From assembly GCF_003966565.1 (NCBI RefSeq), contig NZ_AP018718.1:124001-188000 (forward strand): a stretch of 64,000 bases of DNA, in the 5' to 3' direction. This DNA is from Sulfuricystis multivorans (GTDB lineage: Bacteria; Pseudomonadota; Gammaproteobacteria; Burkholderiales; Rhodocyclaceae). The notes under the pieces were generated by a model, which searched no databases, had not been told where the DNA came from, and saw only the letters and a program-made list of their open reading frames with translations. Of the stretch, positions 49,961 to 64,000 are shown piece by piece (the first letter of the stretch is position 1; each line of letters starts with the position of its first letter). Both the position numbers and the translations under genes were made by a program.

Positions 49961-49996
49961 CTTCCAATCCCTTCGTGATCAGGGCATGTGTCGAGA
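49961..49996 (-). CRISPR. Orphan degenerate CRISPR repeat upstream of the TM-SAVED gene
   Basis: 24 of 36 positions match the array repeat in the same register, including the blocks AATCCCTT and ATCAGGGCATGT (plus strand). The end that would give the crRNA 5' handle is among the diverged positions. It lies 43-78 bases upstream of the TM-SAVED start and 1.05 kb from the main array. It could be a remnant of a longer array or a regulatory repeat. Confidence 0.75.
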
Positions 49997-51054: not shown

Positions 51055-54000
51055 TGCCAAATCCCTTTGAAATCAGGGCATGTTTCCTACCGAATTCTTG
51101 CGGCGTCTCCGATCGTCGTTGTCGTCTTAATCCCTTTAAAATCAGGGCATGTTTCCTACCAAGAACGAAGAGGAGAAAACGGCCGAAACCCAAGGTCTTA
51201 ATCCCTTTGAAATCAGGGCATGTTTCCTACAAAAGTCGCTTCGATTTTGAAGGTCGAGTAGTGTCTTAATCCCTTTGAAATCAGGGCATGTTTCCTACTC
51301 TCGGCTTACGAGCAGGCCGAGAACAAGACTTTGTCTTAATCCCTTTGAAATCAGGGCATGTTTCCTACCTGTGTCTCAAGACGATTTTGATACCGCTTTT
51401 GGGTCTTAATCCCTTTGAAATCAGGGCATGTTTCCTACTGGAGCCGAGCTATTAAGGTGATGAACGGCTGGTGTCTTAATCCCTTTGAAATCAGGGCATG
51501 TTTCCTACTCTAATCCTCGGCCGCCGCGGATTGAACGATGCCCGTCTTAATCCCTTTGAAATCAGGGCATGTTTCCTACGAAAAGCGCCGCACCTAAAGA
51601 GTTGGCCACTCGCGCGTCTTAATCCCTTTGAAATCAGGGCATGTTTCCTACCACAAGGGGTTGTGGAAACGAGGGGTTTCTTCGGTCTTAATCCCTTTGA
51701 AATCAGGGCATGTTTCCTACTGGGCATCTGGTTCGGGCTACCGGCTGGCGTTCCAGTCTTAATCCCTTTGAAATCAGGGCATGTTTCCTACAAGATTTCG
51801 ATATCGCTTTTGGCGGTATCGAGCTTGTCTTAATCCCTTTGAAATCAGGGCATGTTTCCTACGCCGCTGGTGATCAAGTGGCCGTTGCCGCCCTCGTCTT
51901 AATCCCTTTGAAATCAGGGCATGTTTCCTACTGCGAGGTGCGGGACGCTTTTAAACAAGCGTATGTCTTAATCCCTTTGAAATCAGGGCATGTTTCCTAC
52001 GAACTTACGCATGCCCAGATGGATGCCCTTAACTGGTCTTAATCCCTTTGAAATCAGGGCATGTTTCCTACAAGTAGTTGGTTTGTTCTCGGCTTACGAG
52101 CAAGGTCTTAATCCCTTTGAAATCAGGGCATGTTTCCTACGTTAGTCTCGGTGCAAGCCGAGACTTTCCAGATGTCTTAATCCCTTTGAAATCAGGGCAT
52201 GTTTCCTACTGCAGATGCTGATCTTTACATCGATGCTAGGAGACAAGTCTTAATCCCTTTGAAATCAGGGCATGTTTCCTACAGTAGATATTGTGATATT
52301 AGGGATGCCTTTAAGGCGTCTTAATCCCTTTGAAATCAGGGCATGTTTCCTACAGCGACTTTACGAAAAGTCGCTTCGATTTTGAAGTCTTAATCCCTTT
52401 GAAATCAGGGCATGTTTCCTACCACTTCTGAAGGTCGAGTAGTTCGACCTTCACGTGTCTTAATCCCTTTGAAATCAGGGCATGTTTCCTACCGTCTGTA
52501 GACGCCGAGACTTTCCAGATACCACGCGTCTTAATCCCTTTGAAATCAGGGCATGTTTCCTACACAGCGTTCGATACCGCTTTTGGCGGTATCCCCCTTG
52601 TCTTAATCCCTTTGAAATCAGGGCATGTTTCCTACGCAAGCCGAGAACAAGACTTTTGCCGCGCGCGAGTCTTAATCCCTTTGAAATCAGGGCATGTTTC
52701 CTACTTTCGTCTTGCGATGAGGCGACCCTTAGGAAGGTGTCTTAATCCCTTTGAAATCAGGGCATGTTTCCTACCGAGAAGTTCGCGCGCGCCCTGGCGT
52801 CATTACTGGTCTTAATCCCTTTGAAATCAGGGCATGTTTCCTACGTCTCCTTTTCAAGGCTATCCGAATGACATGAGTTGTCTTAATCCCTTTGAAATCA
52901 GGGCATGTTTCCTACACACAAGAGGACAAAAAACGGAATCGTTCGCGTCGTCTTAATCCCTTTGAAATCAGGGCATGTTTCCTACCCATGAACCAAGCAC
53001 CAGTAGTATCCCCGTCCGAGCGTCTTAATCCCTTTGAAATCAGGGCATGTTTCCTACGCGGCATCGGTAGCAGAAATGCGTGGTTCCACTAGTCTTAATC
53101 CCTTTGAAATCAGGGCATGTTTCCTACATTTCTGCATGCGATGAGGTCACTCTTAAAAAAGGTCTTAATCCCTTTGAAATCAGGGCATGTTTCCTACCTA
53201 GCCACAAGCACGACCTCGTCGTGGTATGCCTCGGTCTTAATCCCTTTGAAATCAGGGCATGTTTCCTACCGATTGCAGGAATGCAGTGGTTGGCGAAATG
53301 GTCTTAATCCCTTTGAAATCAGGGCATGTTTCCTACTCACGAGGAGCGCAACCATGCCTGCACAAACCGTCTTAATCCCTTTGAAATCAGGGCATGTTTC
53401 CTACAGAAGTTCGCGCGCGCACTTGCCGGGGTTCTGGTGTCTTAATCCCTTTGAAATCAGGGCATGTTTCCTACCCATGAACGGTTGGTTGGTTTCGGTT
53501 TCGGCCGAGTCTTAATCCCTTTGAAATCAGGGCATGTTTCCTACAAGGAGAGGAAAATGAAAGCATCACACAAGTTCAAGTCTTAATCCCTTTGAAATCA
53601 GGGCATGTTTCCTACTCATAAGTGAGGATTGGAAAGAACGGCACGTCTTAATCCCTTTGAAATCAGGGCATGTTTCCTACACGACTGGATTTCGGAAATG
53701 GCACCGGCTTATATGTCTTAATCCCTTTGAAATCAGGGCATGTTTCCTACGCGGCGTGGGTTTCTGGCATGAGTAAAATCATGCGTCTTAATCCCTTTGA
53801 AATCAGGGCATGTTTCCTACCCGGCCACTAGTGACGACGCGCGCGATAAGGCGTGGTCTTAATCCCTTTGAAATCAGGGCATGTTTCCTACTTCCTCCAC
53901 CGCCTCAACACCGATATAGCGCCGGCAGTCTTAATCCCTTTGAAATCAGGGCATGTTTCCTACTTTTACTCATGCCAGAATCCGAAGCTCTCGCGTTGGT

Positions 54001-55173
54001 CTTAATCCCTTTGAAATCAGGGCATGTTTCCTACCCCATCCCTACCAAGGGCGCGCCGTAGCTGCCCTGTCTTAATCCCTTTGAAATCAGGGCATGTTTC
54101 CTACCTTGCCTTGATGGCAAGGGCGAAGAAGAAGGAAGGTCTTAATCCCTTTGAAATCAGGGCATGTTTCCTACTGGTCACGCGCGATAAAGGTCATGAA
54201 TTCATGGCTGTCTTAATCCCTTTGAAATCAGGGCATGTTTCCTACCGCTTTGGAAGTCGTCATCCTTGCCGCAGCGGCGTCTTAAGTCTTAATCCCTTTG
54301 AAATCAGGGCATGTTTCCTACCCGCACTTCTGAAGGTAGAGTGATCTACCTTTATGTCTTAATCCCTTTGAAATCAGGGCATGTTTCCTACAACGAGATT
54401 AGGGAAATACTCAAAAAAGGCCCAGGTCTTAATCCCTTTGAAATCAGGGCATGTTTCCTACGTGCGGGCAGGAAAGCGAAAGAAGAGGCGCCCAAAGTCT
54501 TAATCCCTTTGAAATCAGGGCATGTTTCCTACTCTACACGTTCATCGAAGCAATGGCCGACGTGCCGTCTTAATCCCTTTGAAATCAGGGCATGTTTCCT
54601 ACACTGATCATGGCAATAAATGAATACGCTATCCGTGTGTCTTAATCCCTTTGAAATCAGGGCATGTTTCCTACAAAGGGGTTCGTGATGAACTGGATCT
54701 TGGAAGAGCGTCTTAATCCCTTTGAAATCAGGGCATGTTTCCTACTTACCGCTACCGCTAACGTTGACGCGCTGTTGGAAGTCTTAATCCCTTTGAAATC
54801 AGGGCATGTTTCCTACTCCGCTCGTGCGCAACAGCGCGAGCGGGTTGGTGCCGTCTTAATCCCTTTGAAATCAGGGCATGTTTCCTACAAGAAAAAATGC
54901 GTGAATTCCAGATTGCCTTCAATCGTCTTAATCCCTTTGAAATCAGGGCATGTTTCCTACGATGGTGCTCATGGCATTTACGTTCCGCAAATCTTGTCTT
55001 AATCCCTTTGAAATCAGGGCATGTTTCCTACCCTGATGCCCAAGGTGAATTTGTTAAGTTCTAAAGCGTCTTAATCCCTTTGAAATCAGGGCATGTTTCC
55101 TACCTGTCGGCTGTTGTAGGGTCGGACTATTCGTAGTGTCTTAATCCCTTTGAAATCAGGGCATGTTTCCTAC
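51055..55173 (-). CRISPR. CRISPR array, 59 repeats and 58 spacers (type III-B associated)
   Basis: Repeats of 36 bp; in the transcribed (minus) orientation each begins GTAGGAAACATGCCCTG and ends AAAGGGATTAAGAC, which gives a crRNA 5' handle AUUAAGAC. The repeat holds a weak CCCT/AGGG stem. Repeats are nearly identical; the one at 51055 has its handle end changed (trailer), and the one at 51124 has a G-to-A change. The leader is at the 55174 side, next to cas2. Spacers are mostly 32-37 nt, with extremes of 29 (53616-53644) and 40 (54246-54285, which ends in a 7-base copy of the repeat start). Counted by eye, base by base. Confidence 0.97.
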
Positions 55174-55282: not shown

Positions 55283-55567
55283 TTACCACGCCGGTGGAAG
55301 ATTGCTCCACTGGATGCCTTCCGGCAAGGTGGCCTTGCCCAGCCGCGCCTTGAAGCCGCGGGCAGGCAGGGGATAGGCGCGCAGGTCGTCTTCGCCGTCA
55401 TCGATCAGCCGCGCAAGCTCGTCCATGATGCGGTTCAGCTGCCGCTCGTCTCCGCTGAAGAGAAATACCGAGTATTGCAAAGGCATGGCGTGCTTCTTGA
55501 GATGGCGGAACACGCGCGCAAGACGCCGCGGATCGGCGATGTCGTAGCAGATCACGAATTCGCTCAT
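55283..55567 (-). CDS. cas2: CRISPR-associated endoribonuclease Cas2 (leader-proximal copy)
   Basis: A 94-residue ferredoxin-fold protein of the adaptation complex. EFVICYDIADPRRLARVFRHLKKHAMPLQYSVFLFSGDE shows the conserved YDI..DPRR..R..K and the Q.SVF strand. It starts within the cas1 stop (ATGA), so translation is coupled. It stands directly before the leader. It differs clearly from the second cas2 at 56550. Confidence 0.93.
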   Translation of the reverse strand: MSEFVICYDIADPRRLARVFRHLKKHAMPLQYSVFLFSGDERQLNRIMDELARLIDDGEDDLRAYPLPARGFKARLGKATLPEGIQWSNLPPAW

Positions 55568-56547
55568 TCGCCGTCTCCGCTGTGCGCTTGGCCGGCGCTG
55601 ACTGGCGCTTCGAGCGCATGGCCAACGCGCTCGGCCAGGGTTTCGACTTCAGCCTGGATGCCGGCGCGCAGCACTTCGCTGTATTCCTCATAGGCCGCGT
55701 AATAACGCGCTCGTCCGGCCTTGCCGAGCAGGCAGCCATTTTCCGTGGTGGAAAAGTCGTCCCGCGGCGAGAGCGTTTGCTTTTTGACGAGCCGCAGGCA
55801 AAATCGGTCGCACAGGGGGCGCAAGGCTTCGAGCAGGTCGGCGGCGAGCGATTCGCGGCCGAAATCGAGGGCGTGATAAAAGCCGACGTAAGGATCGAAG
55901 CCAGCGCCATAGAGCGCGATGGCGAGTTCCGCATGGGCGAGCGTGTAGGTGAGCGAAAGCAGCGCGTTGAAGGGGTCTTTCGGCGGTCGGCGGTTGCGGC
56001 TTTTGAATTGCCACGATTCCGGCACCACGGCTTTGAGCCCGTCGAAATAGCAGGCGGCGGCCGAACCTTCGATGCCGCGCAGCCGGGCGAGGCTGTCGGC
56101 GCTTGGCAGCCGCTGCTTGTGTCCGGCGATGAGCTGCATCGCGTGCGTGAGCTCGTAGCGCGCCTGCATGTCGCGGCTGCGCAGTTCATCGAACCATTCG
56201 ATCTGGTGGTCGATCTTGCGCTCGATCAGGGCGCGCGCGTATGTCAGGCAAAAGCTGGCATCGAGGCTTTTTTCGATCTGCGCGACGCGCCGGGCGGCGT
56301 CATTGTGCGGGCGAGCGAGAAGCAGGCTGGGCTTGCCACGGCGACCGGAGAGAATGACCACGCCGACGCCTTGCTCGCCGAGCTTGCCCAACAGGCTCGC
56401 CGAGAGTGTCACCTCCCCGCGCAAAAAGACGCGCGTCAAGGGGGCGATCGGCACGGTGCCGATGCGCTCGCCGTTTTCGCGGAAGACGATGGCGCCGGAT
56501 TCGAGCTCGAGATGAGCGCCGCGGCGGTCGACGAACAGGCTGCTCAT
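55564..56547 (-). CDS. cas1: CRISPR-associated endonuclease Cas1
   Basis: A 327-residue integrase for spacer acquisition. The start ATG at 56547 opens SSLFVDRRGAHLELESGAIVFREN (beta domain). The active site pieces are ALLSLTYTLAHAELAIALYGAGFDPYVGFYH (conserved Glu/His, residues about 205-235) and the downstream region around RPLCDRFCLRL. No reverse transcriptase domain is fused. Two bases separate it from the upstream cas2 and it overlaps the downstream cas2 by 4 bp, giving cas2-cas1-cas2. Confidence 0.94.
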   Translation of the reverse strand: MSSLFVDRRGAHLELESGAIVFRENGERIGTVPIAPLTRVFLRGEVTLSASLLGKLGEQGVGVVILSGRRGKPSLLLARPHNDAARRVAQIEKSLDASFCLTYARALIERKIDHQIEWFDELRSRDMQARYELTHAMQLIAGHKQRLPSADSLARLRGIEGSAAACYFDGLKAVVPESWQFKSRNRRPPKDPFNALLSLTYTLAHAELAIALYGAGFDPYVGFYHALDFGRESLAADLLEALRPLCDRFCLRLVKKQTLSPRDDFSTTENGCLLGKAGRARYYAAYEEYSEVLRAGIQAEVETLAERVGHALEAPVSAGQAHSGDGE

Positions 56548-56549
56548 GA

Positions 56550-56834
56550 TCAGACGATGGCGAAGAATCCGTCGGTGAAGTGCTTGGCGCGGCCGAAGAG
56601 CCGCGGCTTCATGCGCGGGTCGAGGCCGAGGAAATGCACGCGGTCTGCGTCGAGGTCGATCATCGCTTCGAGTTCGGCGCGGATCGCGGCCAGTTGTGCC
56701 GGCGTGACCCAGATTTCGAATACCGATTTCTGGCCGGCGACTTTGTAGCCGGTCAGATAGCGGCATACGCGGTGAAGCCGCCGTTCATCGGCGATGTCGT
56801 AGGCGACGATGGTGAGGTGGCGCTGTGTGTCCAT
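56550..56834 (-). CDS. cas2: Second Cas2 protein (upstream of cas1)
   Basis: A 94-residue Cas2-family protein: LTIVAYDIADERRLHRVCRYLTGYKVAGQKSVFEIWVTPAQ shows the catalytic-type YDI..DERRLHRV motif and Q.SVFE strand. It shares only the family pattern with the leader-proximal Cas2, so it is not a recent duplicate. Ends two bases before the cas1 start. The upstream start at 56834 was chosen by family alignment; the frame extends much further without conservation. Confidence 0.88.
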   Translation of the reverse strand: MDTQRHLTIVAYDIADERRLHRVCRYLTGYKVAGQKSVFEIWVTPAQLAAIRAELEAMIDLDADRVHFLGLDPRMKPRLFGRAKHFTDGFFAIV

Positions 56835-56968
56835 GCCGCCATTGTGCAAGCGTCGGCGCTGGCGAGCCGGCACGGCAAGCTTGTCGGAGGAGGGTCTCGG
56901 TCGGTGCGCTCGCGCCGGGCGGGCATGCCGCGGCGTGGCGCCGACCTGGGCGCCACGGGCGGCGGCGA

Positions 56969-57277
56969 TCAGGGGCGAAGTGTTTTTCCGGTGGGGGCGA
57001 CGACGTATTCTTCGAGGCGCGCATCGAGCGCTTTGAGCGTTTGCGCATCGAGCTCCTGACCGCGCAGATGGGCGGGCAGATCGAGCGAGAGGTTGAAGTA
57101 GCGCGCGCCGCGCGCGCACACCTGCGCGGCCAGATGCACCGGCAAGGAGCCGATCACGACGTCGCCGGCTTGGAGCATGCCCGGGTCGAGATGCGGCACA
57201 TGGACATCGAATGCCACTTGCGCGGCGCGCGCCCAGTCGAGCGCGCCGGGGTGACGACTGACGAAGTAGGTGGTCAT
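56969..57277 (-). CDS. csx16: CRISPR-associated protein Csx16 (candidate ring nuclease)
   Basis: A 102-residue protein of the Csx16 family (TIGR02620, VVA1548). Conserved: MTTYFVSRHPGALDWARA, VPHLDP, DVVIGSLPVHLAAQVCARGARYFNLSLDLP. Csx16 proteins occur with type III systems and members have been proposed or shown to degrade cyclic oligoadenylates and so switch off effectors. Located downstream of the NE0113-type gene with an inverted-repeat element between. Confidence 0.92.
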   Translation of the reverse strand: MTTYFVSRHPGALDWARAAQVAFDVHVPHLDPGMLQAGDVVIGSLPVHLAAQVCARGARYFNLSLDLPAHLRGQELDAQTLKALDARLEEYVVAPTGKTLRP

Positions 57278-57282
57278 GGTTC

Positions 57283-57490
57283 AACTCAGATTGTCCATTG
57301 GAACGCGAGCGGGTATCAAAAGCGAGGGCGAGCAGGTTTGCGTCACCGCGACGAGCCAATAACCCTGTCTGGCGATACGCGGGGGCGGAAAGATGCCGCC
57401 CGCAGCGTGTAAACCGCAGCGTAGGGCAATGAAATGATCGTATCGGATGTTCATGGCGAATCAGCCCGGTCTCAATGGACAATCTGGGTT
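57283..57490. repeat. 208-bp element bounded by 18-bp inverted repeats
   Basis: AACTCAGATTGTCCATTG (57283-57300) and CAATGGACAATCTGGGTT (57473-57490) are inverted copies with one mismatch. The right arm ends at the last base of the stop codon of the NE0113-type gene; the left arm ends six bases before the csx16 start. No coding capacity. It could be a MITE-like element or a pair of binding sites. Confidence 0.75.
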
Positions 57491-58599
57491 CAACGAATGT
57501 CGATGCGTTCGGCTTCCAGCGGCAGGGCATTGGGGCCGCGCGGGGGAATCTGGTAGCGGCGGGCGGCCGTCTTGCCCAATGCGGCTTCGAAGGCGCGGTT
57601 GATGCGCGATTTGTGCGGCTGGAAGTATTCGCCGAGGCGGATGGCGGCATCGCGCCGCCAGTCGAGGGCTTCTTCGATGCGCTCGTAGTCGCCGCTCATG
57701 GGGTTGAATACTTCTTTGGCCACGCGCAGGAATTCATCACACGCCGCGGGCGTGGTCCAATCCACCATGGGCTCGCCCGCCTGGGCGCGCCGCGCCAGCC
57801 ATAGGAGGAGAGCGAACTCGGTGGCGGAAAGGTTGAGGGCAATCTCGTCCGCCCAGGCCGCGCGCGTCGCCAGATCCAGCACCAGCCGGGGCGGATGTTG
57901 GGCGCGCTCCGCGGCGGCCACGACTTCGCTCATGCTGGCCTGTCCGTCGAGCAGCCGGGGAGGCAGTCCCTCGCGCAGGCGCACGAAGGGAATCTCGGCG
58001 AGCGTCACCTTGGCCTCGCGGCAGTCGGCGAGCTTGCCGTCGCGTGTCTGGATGATGCGCTCGTAGGGCGTGGGGTAGAAAAACTCCCAGCTCGATTCGA
58101 AGGGTTCGGACACGAGCACGTGGGAGAGCCTGTCCTGGGGGCGACCGAAGAGCGACAGGGCATAACCCAGGTAATAGCCCATCGTCTTGCGTCCGCCGGC
58201 AATGGAGACGTGCAACGCGGCCTGCGGGTCGCTGGTGAGGCTGCGCACGATTTCGGTGATGCGATCCGCGGCATGCGTGTTGTCCGCCGGGGTGCGGATG
58301 TCGTCCAGTGGCCGGCCTTCTCCATCCGAGAAGGTCTCGATGTGGTTTTCATCGAAGGTAATGGCGGACACGCGGAAATCCCGGCACAGCCGCCTGAACC
58401 AGCCGGGATCGTCCGAGAGCAGCGCCAGCCGCGCCCGCGCCGCGCCCTCGCGAGTGGTGATGAGGCGCACCTCGGTGGGCACGAAGGGCGTGGGCTGGGC
58501 AATAAGCGCATAAAGGGTCTCGGTGATGATCTGCGGGGTCAGGCCGCTGACCGCCAGCAGGATGCGCCTTGGGTAGGTGTGGGGCTGTTCCGGTGCCAT
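57490..58599 (-). CDS. NE0113/TIGR02584-family CARF protein (Csm6-like, possible ring nuclease)
   Basis: A 369-residue protein starting RRILLAVSGLTPQIITETLYAL (CARF strand-loop with ligand Gly) with a second core segment HVSIAGGRKTMGYYLGYALSLFG near residue 130. The family is described as CRISPR-associated ring nuclease Csm6 / cas_NE0113. The C-terminal part (about 225-369) is helical with a winged-helix-like SATEFALLLWLARRAQ and YERIEEALD; no HEPN RxxxxH motif is evident, so ribonuclease activity of the Csm6 type is unlikely. Role: sensing or cleaving cyclic oligoadenylate. Confidence 0.82.
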   Translation of the reverse strand: MAPEQPHTYPRRILLAVSGLTPQIITETLYALIAQPTPFVPTEVRLITTREGAARARLALLSDDPGWFRRLCRDFRVSAITFDENHIETFSDGEGRPLDDIRTPADNTHAADRITEIVRSLTSDPQAALHVSIAGGRKTMGYYLGYALSLFGRPQDRLSHVLVSEPFESSWEFFYPTPYERIIQTRDGKLADCREAKVTLAEIPFVRLREGLPPRLLDGQASMSEVVAAAERAQHPPRLVLDLATRAAWADEIALNLSATEFALLLWLARRAQAGEPMVDWTTPAACDEFLRVAKEVFNPMSGDYERIEEALDWRRDAAIRLGEYFQPHKSRINRAFEAALGKTAARRYQIPPRGPNALPLEAERIDIR

Positions 58600-59133: not shown

Positions 59134-60072
59134 TCAGGCGTCAAGGCGATAGCCGCCCAGCCCGAAGGTGGCTTCCTTGCCGACATGGAGCCACTGGCCA
59201 AGGTGGAGAAACGGCGCGAAGGGCGCAAGATCACCGGTGAGGAACCACTCGCCCACGACGCCGCCCAGGCTCATCTTTTTCTGCTGGCGCGAGGAGTAGC
59301 GCGTCCAATCCTGAAAGTCTAGCTGCGTTTCGCTCTCGATCGTCTCGGCATGCTTGGCGAGCGCCGGAAAGTCGAGCGCAAGCGGTCCGTCACCATGAAA
59401 CTCGCACAGCAAGGCCACACGGCGCACCAAGGCCATGAGGAGCTTGCGCGCCGTGTGTTCCTCGACGGTGGCGCGGCGGCCGTTGGTCTGCAACCTCAGC
59501 GGTGTGTGGAAATGCAACCGCGCCGCCTGGTTCATGGCCGCCGCGGCTGGCGGCGTGGTGTCATGGGGCGCGATGGCATCCCCCGGGCCCTCGAGGATGA
59601 CCTGCTCGCTCATCCCCTCATGCACGACTCGCATCAGCTCCGCCGTGCCATCGCCTTTTCCGACGCCGCGCCGGAAGGCCTTGACGTGGGCCCAGAGGAC
59701 GAGCGGCAGCTGCGCAAGCGCGCGCCCCGCTAGAACGATGTGAAAGGCCAGACGCTCGCCGGGCTGATAAAGGCGCTCGCCCATTTCCGGCGGCTCGATC
59801 ACGTAGGGACGCGGCACCTGGGAAAAATCCTGCAGCGATGGCGCGTGATGCTGCGGCGGACGAGTCTCGAAGATCGCCGCATAGGGACAGGTGTGGATGA
59901 GCGGACAGCCTTCGCAGACAGGCTTGCGCGTCATGCACGACGCGGCGCGCAGCGCCCCGCCCCAGGCCCCGCGCAGCGTGGAACCGGCATAGGCGGGCAA
60001 ATGCAGCGGCCGGGTGACTTCGAATTCGAGACGGTAGCGGGCGAGGGGAAGGGCGATGTCGGCTACGATCAT
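59134..60072 (-). CDS. cas6: Cas6-type CRISPR RNA processing endoribonuclease
   Basis: A 312-residue RAMP protein that would cut the array transcript within repeats. N-terminal ferredoxin-like domain RYRLEFEVTRPLHLPAYAGSTLRGAWGGALR, a cysteine cluster CEGCPLIHTCPY (residues about 54-65), and the C-terminal glycine-rich loop LHVGKEATFGLGGYRL. The C-terminal half fits the CRISPR_Cas6 (PF10040-like) group that accompanies type III systems. It overlaps the csx1 stop by 4 bp. Confidence 0.9.
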   Translation of the reverse strand: MIVADIALPLARYRLEFEVTRPLHLPAYAGSTLRGAWGGALRAASCMTRKPVCEGCPLIHTCPYAAIFETRPPQHHAPSLQDFSQVPRPYVIEPPEMGERLYQPGERLAFHIVLAGRALAQLPLVLWAHVKAFRRGVGKGDGTAELMRVVHEGMSEQVILEGPGDAIAPHDTTPPAAAAMNQAARLHFHTPLRLQTNGRRATVEEHTARKLLMALVRRVALLCEFHGDGPLALDFPALAKHAETIESETQLDFQDWTRYSSRQQKKMSLGGVVGEWFLTGDLAPFAPFLHLGQWLHVGKEATFGLGGYRLDA

Positions 60073-61277
60073 GGCGTGTTGGTCAATCGGCTCAAGGTTG
60101 CTTCCAATTCGCGCCGGAGACGTTCGGGATTGCGCATCAGCTTGGCGTGCGGTTCGTGGCTGGGCGGCGTTCCGTGGGCGCAGGCATTGCGCACGTTCTT
60201 GAGCAGCCAGTAGGCATTGCGCTTCCAGTCGGCATGCCCGCCTTCCCGTGCCTCGCCCTGAAAGCGCTCATCGGCGGCCTTTCGCGCGTTGAAGTCCAGG
60301 GGGTTGGCGCCTTCTGCCTCCACCTCGCGGGCAAGAAAGCTTTCCAGACCGAAAATGCTGGCGCGCAGCACATCGCCGCGCTCGAGGCTTTGCAAGGCCA
60401 GCAGACGAAATTTCTCCGAAAGTGTCTTGGCGTGGCACCAGCGCAGCGCCTTTTGCAGGCGCGCGCGAAACAGCCAGGAGGCGCCCGCGAGCGGCGCTTC
60501 GAGCGCCTTGAGCGCGGAACTCAGGCTCTTCGCGGCGTCCTTGACATTGGTGAGCACCAGAAAGTGCCAGGCGCGGGTGAGTGCCTCTGCTGCTTGCTGC
60601 GGAAAATCGTCGCGGATGAGAAGCGGCGCGAAACGGGAAAAATCGCCGCTCGCCTCATAGGCTTCAAAAGCCTCGGCCCATTCTTGCAGATGCGCCAGGC
60701 CATCGAGAGTGACCACGGGCGTGATGCCGCCCTGGGTCATGTCGAGCGCGCCATAGTAGAGGCCGGCCACTTTCACCTCGCGCTCATGGGCAAGATAGCG
60801 GGCGGCGGCAAAGCCCAGCATGGCCAGATGGCGAAAGCCGTGGGTGAGATCGAGGGCGACCTGCTCTTGCCGCCCCAGATGGTCGGCAAGGCGCGTGAGT
60901 ACTTCTTCCTGCTCGGCAAACGTGACGCAAGACGGGATGAGCAGACCTTGCACGGGGCGGCCGAGGCTCGCCGTCATCGCAGGTGACAAGGCATCGAGCA
61001 GGCCCTGGGTGACCGTGCCGGCACGCACGGCGTCGAACAATTCCAGGCGCAGCTCCTCGGCAGCATCGTCGCCGGCGACGTTTTCCACGAGCATGTCCCA
61101 CATGCTCGATGCCGTGCCGAGCACGATGACGCGCTCGGCGCCGAGATGATCCGCCAAGGCCAGTCCGAAGTAGGCCGTTTCGTGCTCGCTGCCATCGGGC
61201 ATGCGGTAGCGGGCGGTGCGATAGCCGGTCTTGCTGTCGAGCTGGCTTTTGCCGAGGAAAGAAATGAGCGTGGCCAT
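60069..61277 (-). CDS. csx1: Csx1/Csx2-family CARF-HEPN ribonuclease (TIGR02221)
   Basis: A 402-residue effector. The N-terminal CARF domain (about 1-190) starts ATLISFLGKSQLDSKTGYRTARY and has VIVLGTASSMWD and ALDLTHGFRHLAMLGF, the ligand-loop region. The C-terminal HEPN domain (about 215-400) has the catalytic RNACAHG (R-x4-H) near residue 365. Homologues are non-specific RNases switched on by cyclic oligoadenylate (cA4 in characterised Csx1). Sits between cmr6 and cas6. Confidence 0.9.
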   Translation of the reverse strand: MATLISFLGKSQLDSKTGYRTARYRMPDGSEHETAYFGLALADHLGAERVIVLGTASSMWDMLVENVAGDDAAEELRLELFDAVRAGTVTQGLLDALSPAMTASLGRPVQGLLIPSCVTFAEQEEVLTRLADHLGRQEQVALDLTHGFRHLAMLGFAAARYLAHEREVKVAGLYYGALDMTQGGITPVVTLDGLAHLQEWAEAFEAYEASGDFSRFAPLLIRDDFPQQAAEALTRAWHFLVLTNVKDAAKSLSSALKALEAPLAGASWLFRARLQKALRWCHAKTLSEKFRLLALQSLERGDVLRASIFGLESFLAREVEAEGANPLDFNARKAADERFQGEAREGGHADWKRNAYWLLKNVRNACAHGTPPSHEPHAKLMRNPERLRRELEATLSRLTNTP

Positions 61278-61379: not shown

Positions 61380-62777
61380 TCATGGCGCCTCCACCCGCAC
61401 GAGTGTCTGTCCTGCAACATGAGCCATGACTTTGACGAACTGATTGGTTTCCACTTTCTCGCGGATCTCCGCAGGCAAAGAAGAGAGAAGTTCTTCACCC
61501 CTAGGGGCGAGGGCGATCGCCGTTTTGCCGTCTTTCTCGGCAGTGAGAGCCTTGTTGGCGCGGTTGAACTTGAGTCTTGCGCCGGGCCAGGCCACGGCAG
61601 CTTCCTGCTCGCGCAGGGCGCGCTCTTCTTCGGCTTGTCGTTTTCGTTCGTCAAGCCGCGCTGCCCGCATGGGCGCGCTTTCCATCGCGCCATAGCCCAC
61701 CGCCGTCTTGGCGCCAAAGCCGAGCCATTGGAAGGCATGCTCGAAGGCGGCGGCAAGCAGCGTCGTCCAGTGCGAGTTGCCTTCGACGAGCAGATCGGGC
61801 GCACCGTCGAGTTTGTTTCTCGTCAGCCGCGCCAGATGGGCTACGTCGCAGACGACATGGAAGCAGAATGTCGAGCCGGGCGGCACGGTGAGGAAGGCGA
61901 TGGGATTGGGCTGGCCACTGTCGTGGGGCGAGACGCTGTCGCCGCTCTTGCGCTCCCTTTTCTCCTGATAGTAGTGCGACTGGTGCGGGGTCATGATCTC
62001 GACCATGAGCGCATTGCCCGCGATCTCGGGAATCACGTCCCAGAAGGCAAGCGCACCGCGCACGGCGTTTGAATCTCCCGGCGGTGGTTCGCGCCCAAAG
62101 AGGACTTCGAGCACGGAAAGCAGAATCGGGTTTCCCCGATCGTCCTTGACCTCTTCGAGCTCACCGTTCGATTTGCACCGCATGAGCGGGTACGCCGCGT
62201 CTTTGTTCCAACCTTTCTTGTCGCCCCACATGCCGCTGGCCAGCTCCTCGGCCGCGCGGCGCACCACGCCCTTCACGCCGCTGCCGGGCAGATAGGGCAG
62301 GCCATAGGGCCACAGGAAGGCGAAGCCGTTCTCGAGCGGGTGCTCGTTGCCAAGGCCGGTGGTGAAGGGGGCAGTGGCGGTGGCGCAGATGGCCAAGCCC
62401 ATTTCCTGACCGGCGCGGGCGGTAAAGGCGGCGCGTTGGCGGGTAACCAGTGCGCGCATGCCATCCTGATCGTGATCATTGAGCCAGGCGATTTCTTTCC
62501 ACGCTTGACGGGCAGCAAAATCGTTCTTTTCCCACAAGCCTGGAAGCGCTCGACGGCTGTGCTGACGCAGGGCCTGGATCGTCGCCTCCATGCCCTGCTG
62601 CTGGAGCAACTGGGCAATGTATTCGCCTTCTCGACTCTTTGCCGAAGCGCGTTTTTTCACTTCCGCCTCCTGATCTGGGCGGGAGGTCCAAATCGGCAAA
62701 TACATCCCAAACCGCATCCCAGGCGATGCGGTTTTGAAGTCACTTCCAAGGTATTGGGGTGCGGCGGCAATGGGCAT
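61380..62777 (-). CDS. cmr6: Type III-B RAMP protein Cmr6 with long C-terminal extension
   Basis: A 465-residue RAMP subunit. The start ATG at 62777 has AGGAGG a few bases upstream. Cmr6 features: TTGLGNEHPLENGFAFLWPYGLPYLPGSGVKGVVRRAAEEL and ALAFWDVIPEI..LMVEIMTPHQSHYYQ, FGAKTAVGYGAM. Cmr6 is usually 250-350 residues; here a further 90-100 residues follow (about 370-465) with a coiled coil (LDERKRQAEEERALREQEA) and a small beta-rich end. In the Cmr complex it caps the backbone with Cmr1. Confidence 0.9.
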   Translation of the reverse strand: MPIAAAPQYLGSDFKTASPGMRFGMYLPIWTSRPDQEAEVKKRASAKSREGEYIAQLLQQQGMEATIQALRQHSRRALPGLWEKNDFAARQAWKEIAWLNDHDQDGMRALVTRQRAAFTARAGQEMGLAICATATAPFTTGLGNEHPLENGFAFLWPYGLPYLPGSGVKGVVRRAAEELASGMWGDKKGWNKDAAYPLMRCKSNGELEEVKDDRGNPILLSVLEVLFGREPPPGDSNAVRGALAFWDVIPEIAGNALMVEIMTPHQSHYYQEKRERKSGDSVSPHDSGQPNPIAFLTVPPGSTFCFHVVCDVAHLARLTRNKLDGAPDLLVEGNSHWTTLLAAAFEHAFQWLGFGAKTAVGYGAMESAPMRAARLDERKRQAEEERALREQEAAVAWPGARLKFNRANKALTAEKDGKTAIALAPRGEELLSSLPAEIREKVETNQFVKVMAHVAGQTLVRVEAP

Positions 62778-62779
62778 TG

Positions 62780-64000
<1,221 letters not shown>

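Follow-up and report, generated by a model that had tools for sequence, protein, structure and literature searches.

We analyzed a CRISPR (clustered regularly interspaced short palindromic repeats) array and the genes next to it in a 64,000-nucleotide stretch of the Sulfuricystis multivorans genome (contig NZ_AP018718.1, positions 124,001 to 188,000), here referred to as the window. The spacers of the array were 29-40 bases long, and all 59 repeats were matched by the Rfam family CRISPR-DR35, two of them under the gathering score. On its right side the array is followed by a set of cas genes which reaches the end of the window; past this end, in a stretch here named L009, cmr4 is followed by cmr3, cas10 and cmr1. 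The array, the spacers discussed below and the genes of the window are listed in Table 1.

A Cas10 of the Cmr2 type was found together with Cmr1, Cmr3, Cmr4 and Cmr6, and the array and cas6 are linked to the Cmr locus as type III-B requires. The locus is thus a type III-B CRISPR-Cas system, a known kind of system. With the models used cmr5 was not identified, and the open reading frame (ORF) L009:2712-3287 had no PADLOC match. A reverse transcriptase (RT) was not detected either: across the complete genome sequence (2.81 Mb in three contigs, given as 100% complete) the search for PF00078 (RVT_1) gave 0 matches and was positive in 3 of 14 control genomes.

Table 1. Features of the CRISPR array and the cas region, with positions in the window
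Feature	Position	Strand	Remarks
CRISPR array	51055..55173	-	59 repeats (36 bases each) and 58 spacers; transcription probably from right to left
Spacer 3, family A	51231..51262	+	overlaps spacers 19 and 20
Spacer 4, hairpin family B	51299..51332	+	
Spacer 5, family C	51369..51402	+	left arm only
Spacer 6, coding family H	51439..51472	+	WSRAIKVMNGW; partner spacer 45 at 54175-54209 (WSRAIKVMNSW)
Spacer 11, hairpin family C	51792..51826	+	
Spacer 13, coding family G	51932..51964	+	CEVRDAFK; partner spacer 18 at 52283-52317
Spacer 15, family B	52072..52104	+	left half
Spacer 16, hairpin family D	52141..52173	+	AGTCTCGGT-GCAA-GCCGAGACT
Spacer 19, family A	52354..52386	+	hairpin AGCGACTTT/AAAGTCGCT
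Spacer 20, hairpin family A	52423..52456	+	stem TGAAGGTCGA/TCGACCTTCA
Spacer 21, family D variant	52493..52527	+	broken stem
Spacer 22, hairpin family C	52564..52599	+	
Spacer 23, family B	52636..52668	+	right half
Spacer 24, coding family F	52705..52738	+	CDEATLRK; partner spacer 30 at 53128-53161
Spacer 25, coding family E	52775..52808	+	KFARALA; partner spacer 34 at 53405-53438
Spacer 39, family I	53751..53784	+	17 bases common with spacer 42 (53964-53998), opposite orientation
Spacer 47, hairpin family A variant	54322..54355	+	stem TGAAGGTAGA/TCTACCTTTA
cas2	55316..55567	-	positions are those of the stretch tested, not gene ends
cas1	55564..56538	-	Cas1 domain, without RT domain; start inferred from domain start in ORF 55564-56766
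Second Cas2 domain	56550..56825	-	C-terminal part of ORF 56550-57650
CARF-domain ancillary protein	57490..58599	-	Cas_NE0113 family
cas6	59134..60072	-	
Csx1/Csm6-type CARF-HEPN protein	60069..61277	-	
cmr6	61380..62819	-	
cmr4	63136..63987	-	

In total, 22 of the 58 spacers belonged to nine families of overlapping or homologous spacers, here named A (spacers 3, 19, 20 and 47), B (4, 15 and 23), C (5, 11 and 22), D (16 and 21), E (25 and 34), F (24 and 30), G (13 and 18), H (6 and 45) and I (39 and 42). Families F, G and H rest mainly on protein comparison. Words of 12 bases were common to 11 of the 1653 spacer pairs of the array, compared with 3 of 5255 pairs within 25 related genomes (Fisher p 2.5e-5), and 11 real pairs had alignment scores of at least 24 while five shuffled sets did not exceed 22. 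A first-pass annotation of this DNA had proposed that the spacers come from related elements, which the nine families support. Every family except I lies on one strand; the members of family I have opposite orientations, so that at least one of its spacers is antisense or the source was double-stranded. In five pairs (20/47, 11/22, 25/34, 24/30 and 6/45) the starts of the partners were 0-3 bases apart. The number of overlaps corresponds to an effective source of about 5-7 kb under uniform sampling, a figure that would be an underestimate in the presence of hot spots.

The families A, B, C and D (4, 3, 3 and 2 members, 12 spacers) are each centred on a strong hairpin. For the spacers 20, 47, 22, 11, 4, 15 and 23 the positions, sequences and stems given in the first-pass annotation were all correct. 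It had also described compensatory changes between spacers 20 and 47, and indeed all 10 of the 10 pairs are kept despite three stem substitutions, with one C-G pair changed on both sides to A-T and one substitution leading to a G-T pair. The arms correspond only when a one-base difference in the loop is allowed. Since the ungapped codon register gives 10 differences in 31 positions, the right arm of this stem was either shifted by an insertion or deletion or formed anew. The two wobble cases of the annotation hold as well: spacer 11 keeps 8 of 8 pairs of spacer 22, and spacer 4 keeps 9 of 9 pairs of the joined spacers 15 and 23, each with one wobble. The chance that random substitutions keep every pair was P = 0.015 for family A and P = 0.17 for each of B and C. 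Its more general statement, that stems are conserved across the variants, is true of three of the four comparable stems (A, B and C); in the fourth, stem D, which it had omitted, 3 of 7 comparable pairs are lost between spacers 16 and 21.

To compare the strength of these folds with chance, a fold was called strong at p<=0.01 against dinucleotide shuffles, and random windows of 34 bases were used as backgrounds. Strong folds were present in 6 of the 58 spacers (4, 11, 16, 20, 47 and 54) and in 6 of 379 distinct spacers of related arrays (Fisher p = 0.002), the latter taken from 31 stretches of 25 genomes in which the arrays are clipped at stretch ends and the repeat types differ. The first background set gave 14 of 1200 windows of single-stranded DNA (ssDNA) phages (phiX174 and Pf3), 21 of 1500 of six virus contigs and 17 of 1200 of the host window. 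Another draw resulted in 7 of 58 for the array, 8 of 379 for the relatives, 20 of 1500 for the virus contigs and 18 of 1500 for the host, and a further one in 21 of 800 (six ssDNA phages), 9 of 800 (virus contigs) and 23 of 800 (host). Depending on the draw, the probability of at least 6 strong folds in 58 spacers from a DNA background was about 1e-4 to 0.006. For the folding z-score of all 58 spacers no significant difference was seen, either to the DNA background (p = 0.13) or to the related arrays (p = 0.36); the latter were themselves slightly shifted relative to the DNA background (p = 0.02).

The encodable peptides do not force the strong folds: when seven spacers of A-D, those whose fold reached p<=0.05, were recoded synonymously, the real fold was stronger than the recodings for spacers 4, 11, 16, 19, 22 and 47 (p = 0.002-0.042), with p = 0.065 for spacer 20. 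Outside the families A-D a strong fold was found in only 1 of 46 spacers, which is no excess. The hairpin excess is therefore a matter of four repeatedly sampled families and not an array-wide trait. Taken together, the hairpin observation is correct and somewhat beyond chance.

The families D-H look like coding sequence with the sense strand on the plus strand, judging from the pattern of substitutions. Differences between their members numbered 10, 7 and 28 at codon positions 1, 2 and 3, respectively (28 of 45 at the third position). Across 13 tested pairs the coding frame had 25 synonymous and 21 other changed codons; in the five alternative frames the synonymous ones were 5-13 out of 48-50. 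The clearest case is family H, in which WSRAIKVMNGW and WSRAIKVMNSW are encoded despite 12 base differences. Families A and C had no third-position bias (3/3/4 for spacers 20 and 47, 1/4/2 for 11 and 22), so these hairpins need not be coding. For the annotation, protospacers in unstructured coding DNA with coincidental stems would have spoken against its proposal; this holds in so far as families D-H behave as coding sequence, and fails in so far as stems A, B and C cannot plainly be put down to coincidence. Read on the strand of the coding families, spacers 33 (53337-53368) and 36 (53545-53579) look like an ATG preceded by a Shine-Dalgarno-like stretch.

At the left end of the array the outermost repeat is degenerate and the next one mutated, which places the leader probably at the right end, past 55173. 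With the leader on this side the CRISPR RNAs (crRNAs) would correspond to the reverse complement of the printed spacers. About 1.1 kb to the left of the array, at 49966-49992, there is a single degenerate repeat core of 27 bases with 85% identity to the array copies, perhaps left over from the end of an older array. The 40-base spacer 46 has GTCTTAA as its last letters (54279-54285), identical to the start of the repeat, which is perhaps due to a slip at integration.

The annotation had suggested searching the spacers against viral sequences including RNA phages; no credible protospacer was obtained from the phage collection or from the patterns searched in IMG/VR. With the whole array as query the phage collection, which includes 1288 records named as single-stranded RNA phages and answering a search with the MS2 replicase, gave one match that was not credible (E = 4), and the plasmids gave 8 records, all repeat-like or at chance level. 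All 58 spacers were compared with 395 genomes of the family, the own genome included; 56 genomes had matches at E <= 0.1, none a credible protospacer, and the best outside match (E = 0.001 over 28 bases) is probably due to chance. In IMG/VR we searched eight patterns from families A, B, C, D, E and H; six gave 0 matches and two gave 2 and 4 with flanks that were unrelated by eye. The peptide pattern of family H had four matches in a collection of 84,980 genomes, all in Nitrosospira and each with a stop inside the peptide, and these were regarded as chance. The hairpin core of family B in 399 genomes of the order, and that of family C in 19 genomes of the genus, occurred only in the array itself. 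Searches of PHROGs, PDB and phages (tblastn) with the spacer peptides yielded nothing, and the 379 spacers of related arrays shared one 13-base word and no credible peptide match with the spacers studied here. An origin of the spacers from the own genome was rejected: neither the spacers nor the two hairpin cores had a copy outside the array at the sensitivity used.

We tentatively prefer, at somewhat less than an even chance, repeated capture from a family of DNA elements, either small or with local hot spots, by an RT-free type III-B system, with a preference for hairpins perhaps contributing. The array would be the memory of a type III-B system without a detectable RT, and its related spacers would have been acquired repeatedly in the course of time from DNA elements (phages or plasmids) that are related but diverged in sequence and have a few short regions in common. 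Hairpins may have been over-sampled, by analogy with the RT-free type III-A system of Streptococcus thermophilus. For its adaptation (Zhang et al. 2021, as cited in a review) a preference for ssDNA hairpins is described, examples being a transfer origin and, in rolling-circle plasmids, the single-strand origins; it is further described as independent of a protospacer adjacent motif and as enriching for encoding-strand spacers that directly follow start codons (PMC9048733). The hairpins would probably be conserved parts of the elements with a putative origin-, terminator- or regulatory-like role, and their conservation would explain why the pairing is kept. The crRNAs would be complementary to the messenger RNA (mRNA) of the invaders, as type III immunity needs, given the leader side assumed above. 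According to the same review, naive hairpin uptake favours the encoding strand and is by itself no help to defence, and in Thermus it is selection that favours the strand effective against mRNA (PMC9048733). Repeated hairpin capture together with sense-strand coding spacers would fit this picture if selection also fixed the orientation, on top of the hairpin uptake.

Several points weigh against the preferred explanation. Selection has to be invoked at all because the orientation assumed here is mRNA-targeting and naive hairpin uptake favours the encoding strand. As the 46 spacers outside families A-D are not enriched for strong folds, no general adaptation bias has to be assumed; repeated sampling of a structured target would suffice. 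The coding frames were picked on the same data that test them, stem D is broken, and none of the searches made in phages, plasmids, related genomes and virus contigs yielded a DNA protospacer. The base composition of the array (A.24, C.25, G.28, T.23), together with its composition by codon position, resembles that of leviviruses.

Plain resampling without any acquisition bias, that is, a small or hot-spotted family of DNA elements with a structured region that was sampled several times, explains the data nearly as well, since the other 46 spacers show no enrichment. We consider it a possible account, if a less probable one. The confinement of the hairpin excess to A-D and the small effective source fit it, and the closely spaced starts in five pairs would be shared hot spots; however, the small offsets are partly an effect of detection. 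Among the five families with near-identical DNA (A-E in our grouping), four are hairpins, which would also have to be a coincidence.

The proposal of the annotation that the targets are structured RNAs leads to a second alternative, in which the spacers come from RNA phages or another structured RNA element and the RT has since been lost or is supplied in trans. In random windows of 19 leviviruses strong folds were frequent (107 of 2000; 110 of 2500 and 44 of 800 in other draws), and the 6 of 58 in the array are compatible with this rate (P = 0.09 for 107 of 2000, P = 0.10 for 44 of 800) in contrast to the DNA backgrounds. The levivirus-like composition, the restriction to a single strand (family I excepted) and the lack of a match in the DNA collections searched point in the same direction. 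However, the assembly contains no RT match, the phage collection with its RNA-phage records gave no credible nucleotide match, and a calibrated peptide test was negative. For this test 58 random fragments of each of the 19 leviviruses, an uneven set since 8 of them were chosen via one Solspiviridae maturation protein, were compared with the proteins of the other 18, a score of 36 or more being counted as strong. The held-out leviviruses had 3-18 strong matches of 58, and the contrast between plus and minus strand was clear (t above 2) in 18 of 19; the array had 0 of 58 strong matches to levivirus maturation, coat and replicase proteins and no strand contrast.

The test argues against an origin of most spacers from Leviviricetes; on A-D alone it is less informative, and on other RNA phages it is silent. 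Apparent likenesses to levivirus proteins (WSRAIKVMN near the start of maturation proteins, EGRVV, CDEATLRK in the MS2 replicase, AETFQIP in a coat protein) were discarded since they did not surpass shuffled peptides (p at least 0.085 for each of the 40 peptides), and a profile search gave no positive bit score. That the targets are structured parts of related elements has partial support; structured RNA targets are possible but unproven, and we regard an RNA origin as rather unlikely. Distinctly unlikely, in our view, is a reading in which A-D derive from one hairpin-rich element of an undescribed lineage of small invaders, maybe an RNA phage class outside Leviviricetes, that was recaptured many times at its hairpins by the type III-B system without a detectable RT.

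Among the ssDNA phages, an origin from microviruses found no support, with 0 of 58 strong peptide matches and a different composition (T.234 in the array,.267-.348 in six ssDNA phages); this is a weak test, as one of five held-out microviruses also had 0. The comparison with inoviruses covered the composition and folding of one genome (Pf3).

It is very improbable that the stems are coincidental, i.e. chance hairpins in unstructured coding DNA with wobble-keeping changes by luck: the chance values of B and C, the broken stem D and the non-significant z-score against the DNA background would allow it, but multiplying the values of A, B and C gives about 4e-4 (with the failure of D not yet counted), stems of 8-10 bp occur at several independent loci and most of them are rarely reproduced by codon recoding.

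The locus shares with other type III-B systems without RT the genes cas10, cmr1, cmr3, cmr4, cmr6, cas6, cas1 and cas2, the CARF ancillaries, the repeats of 36 bases and the spacer lengths; it differs from them in its unusually clustered spacers, the two Cas2 domains and the cmr5 that the models did not identify. With the S. thermophilus III-A system, as covered by the passages in PMC9048733, it has in common an RT-free type III adaptation, the recurrent capture of stem-loops and some spacers at possible gene starts. The subtype is another one, an acquisition assay was used there and a stored array alone is available here, and the excess is limited to four families; furthermore, the bias towards the encoding strand contrasts with the mRNA-targeting orientation that the leader side suggests for this array. 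The III-B systems with RT-Cas1 (Marinomonas; Arthrospira, PMC5513706) likewise have spacers of untraced origin, but these are described there as hyperdiverse, whereas the spacers of this array, for which no RT was detected, overlap strongly. The Leviviricetes are similar in their near-equal base use, codon-position composition and frequent hairpins and differ in the lack of protein similarity in the calibrated test.

A passage in PMC5513706 states that up to 2017 no CRISPR spacer had been mapped to an RNA virus. RT-containing type III systems were later cited, in a passage of PMC10847044, as targeting presumed prokaryotic RNA viruses, the viruses of that study itself being given there as without a spacer match. 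In the full-text literature on RNA phages, hairpins and type III spacers we recognised no natural array with such a pattern among the matches listed, judged by their titles and the beginnings of their abstracts.

If the recurrence of hairpins reflects an adaptation bias, the array would document, naturally and for a Cmr system, a preference reported from type III-A acquisition experiments. If it stems from the target instead, the array would supply sequence variants of conserved structures from invaders whose own sequences did not turn up in our searches. In both cases, natural spacers that overlap permit tests of coding frame, strand and stem conservation without a protospacer.

Regarding the adjacent genes, the N-terminal part of the ORF 56550-57650 is probably non-coding, and a genome scan with the full ORF as query found no relative of this long Cas2 ORF. 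The two Cas2 domains lie on either side of cas1, and 79% identity was found between 55500-55547 and 56755-56802. Near the cmr operon, L009:10812-12050 encodes a protein matching DrmC models (E 7e-17).

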